Source: Oscillospiraceae bacterium
Lineage (GTDB): Bacteria > Bacillota > Clostridia > Oscillospirales > CAG-272
Direction of reading: 5' to 3'
DNA: 59,865 bases
Assembly (NCBI GenBank): GCA_015064085.1
Contig: SVSX01000006.1
Coordinates: 1-59,865, forward strand
The translations under genes and the position numbers were made by a program. Below are positions 102 through 2,262 of the stretch, in pieces. The notes under the pieces were generated by a model. It saw only the letters and a program-made list of their open reading frames with translations. It had not been told where the DNA came from and did not search any database. Every line of letters begins with the position of its first letter. Positions within the stretch are counted from its first letter, which is position 1.

Positions 102-121
102 AACTCTTATTATGAGAAGAT
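102..121 (+). repeat. Left copy of a 20-bp inverted repeat in hsdS
   Basis: The sequence AACTCTTATTATGAGAAGAT occurs here and, exactly inverted, at 1262-1281 inside the active hsdS. Both copies encode N-S-Y-Y-E-K-I in the same frame relative to their genes. The bases just outside the repeat differ (G versus T on one side, T versus C on the other), so identity stops sharply at 20 bp. It is the likely crossover site for a DNA inversion that swaps target-recognition domains. Confidence 0.85.
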
Positions 122-704
122 TGCCAGTTCTACGGTGCGCATAGATGAAATTCCTTTTGAGATACCAAACAGTTGGACATGGATTCGTTTGGGTGCAATT
201 ATACAAGTAGTAAGTGGCGTATCTTATGATAAACAGGACGTAAGAACCCGTGGTATAAGAATAATTAGAGGCGGAAACATCGAAAATCTAAAAATAAAAT
301 TATTACACGATGATGTTTATTTGCCCCAGAACTATTTGGATGAAGAAAAGTTGATAAAAAAAGGCGATGTTGTAATTGTCGCTTCGACAGGAAGCAAAAT
401 CGCAATAGGTAGAGCTGGTTTTGCGAATGAGAATTATGAAAACACGCAAATTGGTGCATTTTTGCGTATAGTAAGGCCTATAGACTTATGCTTGTCTCAC
501 TATATTCAACTATTGTTTTCTTCAGATTATTATCGCGATCATATTCGTAATTTAGTACATGGGAATACCATAAACAATATAAAAAACGAGTACATAACCG
601 ACTTATTGGTGCCCATTCCCCCTGTTGAAGAACAAAAGTCTATAGCACAGTGTTGTAAAGAATTGTTTTTATCATTGCAAATGATAGAAAAGAGCCTCAG
701 CTGA
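102..704 (+). pseudogene. Silent hsdS cassette (second target-recognition domain)
   Basis: This open frame encodes about 200 residues that align with the second half of the adjacent HsdS: it opens with NSYYEKI, continues with a DEIPFEIPNSW linker typical of S-subunit TRDs, and ends with PIPPVEEQKSI...IEKSLS. It lies opposite to and convergent with hsdS. The open frame extends upstream to a GTG at 72, but there is no ribosome binding site and homology starts only at the inverted repeat at 102, so it is probably not expressed as it stands. The TRD between the shared ends is unlike that of the active gene, so it would specify a different DNA half-site. Inversion would fuse it in frame to the expressed N-terminal half. 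I read it as a storage cassette rather than a decayed gene. Confidence 0.8.
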
Positions 705-717
705 GGCTCTTTTCTAT
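684..717. terminator. 34-bp perfect palindrome at convergent hsdS ends
   Basis: A 17-bp arm (ATAGAAAAGAGCCTCAG) is followed directly by its exact complement. On each strand it encodes the last residues I-E-K-S-L-S and the stop codon of one of the two convergent hsdS reading frames. The folded arm followed by TTTTCT also resembles a bidirectional terminator. It is the second shared end of the exchangeable cassettes. Confidence 0.75.
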
Positions 718-2262
718 TGTAGCTATATAATCTAAGAGTTTTTCGAGTTCGGTACAAATCAGCTTTTGCTCATTGATAGGAGGTATTGGATACAACCAAT
801 TCTCGATGTTATCTTTGCTAATTGAGGGAGAATTGTCACCTTTCATAAACTGATTCAAACCTTGTACGACGTACTCAGATATCATTAGAAAGTACATAAA
901 AGGAGGATATAGTATTCCGTTCGAGTTGCACACATAAAAGCCCGTTGAAGCTATGCAATCCTTGTTGTCTGAATTGACGTATGCAATGTTCTCCAAATAA
1001 GGTCTAACGAAGGAAAACAAAACACTGCCAGCTTGTACAGCTCGACTCGCACGGCTTGGAGCGTCTTTTGCCGCTATCACTTTGGGTTGCTTGATTTTAT
1101 GCGCTTTGTTATCTATGGAATCAATATCAATATACCTAAAAGATTCTCCATCGGGACGTTTGGTTTCCATCCCGGAGAAGCATGAATAACCTCTGCACCA
1201 TACCCATTCAGGAGGCAACTCAAATGGTATTTCAGCATCTATACAAAGAGTCTGATTTCCGATCTTCTCATAATAAGAGTTATCCTCACCTTTGAAGATG
1301 ACAGATTCCTTCTTGTCACGCTTGATTTTGCCTTGTTTGATGAGTTCTTCTTTTTCTGCGCGGATACGCTCAAGGAGAGCTGAAGCAGGCTCGTCTCCGG
1401 GATTCTGCGAAACAAGTTTTCCTCGAATTGCAAGATCGAGAATTTGTTTTTTAACACTCTCTACATCGATAGTAAATTCAGAATTTAATTCATCTAAATT
1501 GTCTACCGAATCCAGAATCGAATCCAACTTTTCAACAATAGTAATCTGCTCTTTATGAGGTGGCAAAGGCACAATCAATTTATGAAGCGCTTTGGACGAG
1601 AATCCTTGTAGTCCTATTCCTTGACCGCCAATTCGTTCCAGTCGTTTCCACAAAAACAAAACATAATAAAAAAATCTATTGGATAAATCAGTGTATGAAC
1701 GGAGTCTATGAATATGGTTTTGAATCCTGATTTCCTCATCAAACGACCATATCGCAGATCTTCCTATATCACCGCCCTCACAAACTAAAAGATCACCCTT
1801 TTTTACTGTGCATTTTTCAATTTCGCTCTCTGTAAAAGGCATTTCTTTTAAGTTGTCAAGCTCGAATCTATCCCAATACAGATTGGATGTTGTTATGTAG
1901 GTAAGCTTCGTTCCTGCTGTATCGGATGAATTTAGAGCTTTGCCAGTGTTGTGAGCGAAAAGAACACCTAACCTGCACCAATTCCAAGATGCCGGCAATT
2001 CAAACGGTATCTCATCTTCAACGCATTTCACAGTTCCATCAGCGAACTTCTCATAATGTAAATTATCCTCACCGACGAAGATGATAGAATCATCCTTAAT
2101 GTCCTTGGCTTTCAGTTTTCCGTCCTTGACCATTTGCTGTTTTTGTGCGCGGATTCGTTCCAAGAGAACCGATGCGGGTTCATCGTTAGGATCCTGCGGA
2201 ACAAGCTTACCGCGAATAGCAAGGTCGAGAACTTTTTCTCTCAATGCTACGGTATCAATCAC
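697..2262 (-). CDS. hsdS: Type I restriction-modification specificity subunit HsdS
   Basis: The 521-aa protein recognises the bipartite DNA target for the HsdR-HsdM complex. It is circularly permuted relative to classical S subunits: it starts with the conserved spacer ([18 protein letters not shown]), then TRD1, then a second copy of the spacer ([18 protein letters not shown]) and TRD2. Both spacers lead into a GEDN.(H/Y)YEK element and an EIPFELP..W linker. Its ATG overlaps the hsdM stop by 4 bp, so the two are translationally coupled. The gene converges on a silent TRD cassette, and a perfect 20-bp inverted repeat lies exactly between its second conserved spacer and TRD2. The displayed TRD2 is therefore probably one of at least two phase-variable forms. 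Family assignment is firm; DNA specificity cannot be read from sequence. Confidence 0.95.
1262..1281 (-). repeat. Right copy of the 20-bp inverted repeat inside hsdS
   Basis: Exact inverse of 102-121, lying in the expressed hsdS at codons N-S-Y-Y-E-K-I directly upstream of TRD2. Recombination with 102-121 would flip 1,180 bp, bring the silent cassette into frame and leave the present TRD2 silent. Confidence 0.85.

Follow-up and report, generated by a model that had tools for sequence, protein, structure and literature searches.

Organization of the locus

The stretch of DNA analysed here, referred to as the window, covers 59,865 bases and is one whole contig of a genome assembly with 89 contigs and 82% completeness. 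Close to its start lies a type I locus on the minus strand, which comprises hsdR (3688-6447; ResIII and EcoEI_R_C), hsdM (2259-3686; N6_Mtase, E 3.5e-67), and the active specificity gene hsdS (697-2262; Methylase_S PF01420, E 2e-21), whose 521-aa product carries two TRDs. All three genes are complete, and this set, with two TRDs in hsdS, is one defining feature of a PsrA-type system.

Opposite hsdS, on the plus strand, positions 72-704 hold a second, silent TRD2 cassette, as the original prediction had stated. It matches PF01420 (E 2.3e-7) across a frame of 210 open codons and starts at a GTG that, read from the sequence, has no purine-rich ribosome-binding site before it. A silent S cassette in opposite orientation is itself a feature of PsrA-type loci. 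The active and silent TRD2 share 22% identity, which bears out their earlier description as divergent.

The two frames are linked by a perfect 20-bp inverted repeat, AACTCTTATTATGAGAAGAT, in which 102-121 is the reverse complement of 1262-1281. The first copy (plus strand) belongs to the silent cassette and the second (minus strand) lies in hsdS between TRD1 and TRD2; both are putative class-2 recombination sites. The repeat had been predicted to fall on the same codons in the same frame, and the match is exact: it begins at a codon boundary in both frames and encodes NSYYEK and the opening two bases of an Ile codon. In the window, it is the sole dispersed exact inverted pair of at least 20 bp, the remaining exact inverted pairs being local hairpins at three places. 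When 102-1281 is inverted in silico, the result is an open HsdS frame of 527 aa, compared with 521 aa now, so the expectation that flipping these 1,180 bp gives a complete in-frame HsdS holds. Inverted repeats that sit in frame at a TRD boundary, and whose in silico flip leaves HsdS full length, are another PsrA-type feature.

Three elements were absent from the original prediction: the start of a recombinase gene at the contig edge, a class-1 site, and a palindrome at 684-717. The putative class-1 site (2045-2064, minus strand) lies in hsdS before TRD1 and has no partner on the contig. Evidence for multiple cassettes on the contig thus consists of one silent TRD and this partnerless site, and the full set is found in G027, a genome of the same genus.

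Adjoining hsdR, the region 6518-10939 encodes a 673-aa protein, a match to the PADLOC candidate PDC-S32 (E 2.7e-116), a PDC-M42B-like protein, and an HTH-DUF3990 protein, and is perhaps a second defence cluster. Further along, 29720-44159 encodes in a row six proteins of about 764-799 aa that resemble one another and look secreted; in the two that were scanned, the C-terminal part matches the endonuclease/exonuclease/phosphatase family.

The recombinase gene and the sister locus

The window begins with the first 11 codons (MKTQQTFEEYL; 1-33, minus strand) of a divergent gene that is truncated by the contig end and is a tyrosine recombinase in G027. An AGGAGG ribosome-binding site, read from the sequence, lies at 42-47 on the same strand. 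It is accompanied at 80-88 (minus strand) by TGGTATAAT, an extended -10-like box of the recombinase gene, which stands outside the invertible segment and has the same sequence in G027. This box is absent from the list of the promoter scanner, which also demands a -35 hexamer and found sites in the window no more numerous than in shuffles. On the contig itself, only the 11 codons speak for a PsrA-type recombinase; positions 1-101 of the window are 97% identical to the corresponding region of G027. It is likely that the locus has a tyrosine recombinase of this family linked to it.

In G027, the divergent gene runs on as a tyrosine recombinase frame (L011, about 10223-11029) with an in-frame TAG about 146 codons in, and this copy may be inactive. 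Another silent hsdS with two TRDs follows beyond it. The sister locus (L011/L022) is complete: it comprises hsdR, hsdM, hsdS, a silent TRD2, the recombinase frame, and this silent hsdS, and each of the two site classes is present there as inverted pairs. By analogy with this arrangement, the full switch in the window's genome probably extends beyond 1,180 bp. In G027, active TRD1 and silent TRD2 (L011 8334-8597 and 9715-9978) have 75% identity across 264 nt, which means that one TRD type occupies both slots there.

Searches of the window's own genome with PF00589, PF01420, and 4.1 kb of G027 found no continuation of the locus, a result that means little for the recombinase because the assembly is 82% complete. 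HsdS matches occur in 4 of 30 genomes of the genus and are full length only in the window's genome and G027, which makes the distribution of the system in the genus sporadic. Another genome of the genus carries an uninterrupted recombinase relative (L111 6706-9869; G023 C63) adjoining a type I system of another sort, in which both strands hold S frames, several in all.

Related loci and recombinase linkage

The HsdS search yielded 64 loci, which by their titles come mostly from Clostridia and Bacteroidales, with a few others. A recombinase relative is present in 37 of them, and hsdS sequence lies on both strands in 35 of these 37. The corresponding figure is 3 of 27 for loci with no recombinase in the stretch, many of which are cut short. 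In the 36 loci where recombinase and hsdM could both be placed, their orientation is the same in 27 and opposite in 9, a mixture that would follow if the site in hsdS also underwent inversion with the far silent copy. One member of the recombinase family, from Streptococcus dysgalactiae, carries the annotation DNA invertase PsrA and shows 58% identity to the query. By manual count, the exact core CTTCTCATAATA lies at most 140 bases upstream of the recombinase in 28 of 38 readable sequences, the window included.

Relatives of the window's own TRDs were also traced. Sixteen loci have a TRD with 50% identity or more to the active TRD2; it is silent in 10 of them, active in 4, and unclassed in 2. 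Script labels gave 11, 3, and 2, and L026 was moved by hand to active because its S frame continues from the hsdM strand, a distance cut-off having misplaced it. Among the seven closest relatives (67-71%), six are silent and one is unclassed. Relatives of the silent TRD are few, with one locus at 48% in which it is silent too.

Conservation of the site as DNA

Two site classes can be distinguished, CTCTTATTATGAGAAG before TRD2 and TTTACATTATGAGAAG before TRD1. Thirteen aligned sites, drawn from the window, G027, E. faecalis, and S. dysgalactiae, share nine invariant columns and two that are nearly so, spelling TTATGAGAAG and then T. In the silent copy, the match to the site ends at the core, and the sequence beyond it differs.

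Because homologous HsdS linkers may be alike by descent, random sequence is the wrong null for such similarity, and a synonymous-codon test was used to address this point. Synonymous variation falls at codons 322-333 and 64-72 and climbs again outside them (59 loci in each test). At twofold-degenerate codons in 45 loci, the mean share of the commonest codon is 0.93 for the 14 codons of the sites, compared with 0.70 for the 94 remaining ones (Mann-Whitney p 4e-7, indicative only, as the loci are related). One site codon, D66, is an exception with a share of 0.60, and three other positions (87, 319, and 324) are as high as 0.95, two of which lie immediately upstream of the site.

The exact 16-base site occurs in 2 of 391 genomes of the class, namely the window's genome and one other, compared with 0 of 391 for a synonymous control pattern. 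The exact 20-mer had no match in the viral contigs searched. Overall, codon usage and alignment indicate that the repeat is constrained as DNA, beyond its protein motif, and that very distant bacteria have retained the flipping site as a DNA sequence.

Inversions in relatives and contig ends

Comparisons between related loci reveal rearrangements at these sites. L032 and L036 have flanks that are 99.2 and 99.6% identical, and about 1.07 kb between the flanks is inverted; L032 has an additional TRD, about 500 bp long, and the site found there in Bacteroidales is a variant. In L034 and L019, which are 86% identical, the TRD pair of 1.16 kb has opposite orientations with respect to the recombinase, and the inversion ends at the outermost bases, first and last, of the site cores.

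In Enterococcus faecalis, nine plasmid copies show nine different block orders, with aligned pieces 98.9-100% identical to L237. These differences are not all pure inversions, since L239 and L242 carry one TRD1 block twice and L241 is cut by the record end. The near-identical plasmids L237 and L245 differ by a single 1,036-bp flip at the equivalent site. A base difference beside the core travels with the TRD in this pair, which places the exchange within about 10 bp, CGCCTATTAT.

Contig ends were considered as a further source of evidence. The break at the start of the window was rejected as a sign of flipping: the window starts at a distance of 121 bases from the repeat's inner end, while the assembler overlap is about 127, as nine pairs sharing 126-127 bp show among 117 readable contig ends of the window's genome (121 of the 178 were taken, 4 of them unreadable). 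At the contig end of L029, no clear match was found. Among 49 contig ends tested in relatives, those of L078-L080 lie 0-2 bases from the site core, and the next nearest lies 29 bases away; by eye, the contigs of L062 and L070 end within the second-site motif. L078-L080 are Bacteroidales-type contigs, and it is their right ends that lie so close to the core. Ends at the core hint at mixed orientations in those samples, a signal weakened by the fact that the loci were found via hsdS, which enriches for ends inside hsdS.

The palindrome between the two frames

The tail-to-tail junction of hsdS and the silent frame is a perfect 34-bp palindrome (684-717) that encodes IEKSLS-stop in both directions. 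It folds at -27.3 kcal/mol (50 bases, z -6.3). A further 17 loci carry it with no more than 6 mismatches, and in L019 and L034 the changes are paired. As a control, 20 shuffled palindromes gave 0 matches in a search that required an exact match of the first four bases and was slightly stricter than the real one. The palindrome is absent from the terminator scanner list, probably because its hairpin lacks a suitable loop with a T run behind it. It is likely a bidirectional terminator. Among the titles listed by literature searches on palindromes or terminators in hsdS inversion, and on PsrA homologs and their sites, none concerns this palindrome or a site shared across phyla, which does not establish that such work is absent.

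Comparison with known invertible type I systems

A close counterpart is the pneumococcal cod locus, for which two reports describe three hsdS genes, psrA, and a 15-bp repeat, IR1, whose inversion strictly needs PsrA (PMC4948785, PMC7096588). Like Streptococcus pneumoniae cod/Spn556II/SpnIII as described there, the present locus has hsdR, hsdM, one hsdS presumed to be expressed, and an inverted silent hsdS sequence. A linked tyrosine recombinase, likely here, and a short repeat between TRDs (15 bp there, 20 bp here) are further points in common. The two differ in phylum branch and sequence; the present locus has one 20-bp pair on the contig, no long repeats were seen, and its inversion and a methylation motif that changes with orientation are predictions. 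Another paper reports that spnIII rearrangement occurs without known recombinases (PMC6620402), which counts against a recombinase-driven explanation.

A survey of REBASE lists inverting type I loci in Enterococcus faecalis, Listeria, Ruminococcus species, Bacteroides fragilis, and others (PMC7394358). The window's locus shares their duplicated variable hsdS and inverted repeats, and the E. faecalis locus also has an integrase/recombinase; unlike those loci, it belongs to an uncultured clostridial lineage. A 20-bp pair may escape that survey, which required repeats longer than known recombining ones (PMC7394358). Pneumococcal SpnIV/tvr resembles the present case as phase-variable type I specificity in a single locus, but, judging by the title, it works through excision and reintegration rather than the inversion proposed here (PMC6265443). 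The locus shows every defining feature of PsrA-type systems that could be tested to a result, and its kind is already known. Novelty lies in the present member, in a site that remote lineages share at the DNA level, and in the palindrome.

Proposed mechanism and alternative explanations

The locus is very probably a PsrA-type invertible HsdS switch, in which a tyrosine recombinase flips 102-1281 and swaps TRD2. The original reading of an invertible specificity cassette is sustained by the layout together with the recombinase, the DNA-level site, and the inversions in relatives, and the silent position of most TRD2 relatives points the same way. The sporadic occurrence in the genus and the 3 of 27 recombinase-free loci with S on both strands count against it. 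The recombinase, whose gene would start at 33-1 as seen in relatives, is expected to recombine the class-2 sites at 102-121 and 1262-1281. By established HsdS biology, the 1,180-bp flip would exchange the second TRD and change the second half of the recognised sequence. Because the repeat supplies six identical codons in the same frame, both forms are full length in silico. The palindrome would give both frames a common C-terminus and should halt transcription from either side. The class-1 site, combined with off-contig silent cassettes as in G027, would permit TRD1 swaps and a third TRD2, allowing up to 2 x 3 = 6 HsdS forms. We infer that inversion also takes place in this bacterium's own population.

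An alternative is that the cassette was once invertible and is now locked, with no working recombinase and a fixed arrangement. The recombinase is visible as 11 codons only, the remainder was not found in the assembly, and the sister frame in G027 contains the in-frame TAG. Against these points, the repeat is still perfect across 20 bp, the silent TRD has no stop for 210 codons, and the assembly is only 82% complete, so this explanation is considered unlikely. The opposed cassette could also be an artefact of metagenome assembly, as the window is the first stretch of a genome that is split into 89 contigs and 82% complete. However, the same layout recurs in isolate and complete records, for example L018, L029, L044, and the Ruminococcus albus plasmid pRUMAL02, as well as in the sister genome G027, and an artefact is highly improbable.

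A different objection holds that the repeat is a mere conserved protein motif of HsdS linkers with no role in recombination. NSYYEK is indeed part of a conserved linker, and TRD1 starts with similar motifs. Yet synonymous positions are nearly fixed at the site and not around it (except D66), the match of the silent copy ends at the core while the outer sequence differs, and the inversions of relatives break at the core; the chance that the motif alone explains the repeat is close to negligible.

Biological significance

A broader and still tentative idea, rather doubtful at present, is that PsrA-type recombinases keep a common site, with the core TTATGAGAAG, in HsdS linker codons across distant phyla. 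TRD cassettes would then be interchangeable, cassettes arriving on mobile DNA could be used by a resident recombinase, gut bacteria might share a specificity pool, and the 34-bp palindrome, which terminates cassettes in both directions in many clostridial loci, would form part of the standard. The codon-internal DNA constraint and the shared palindrome make such standardisation and exchange of cassettes across distant bacteria testable.

With this locus, an uncultured gut clostridial lineage joins the inverting type I systems, which can alter phage defence, and possibly gene regulation, within one clone. As its repeat is only 20 bp long, surveys based on long repeats may overlook such loci, and the conserved core together with the recombinase offers a better search handle.
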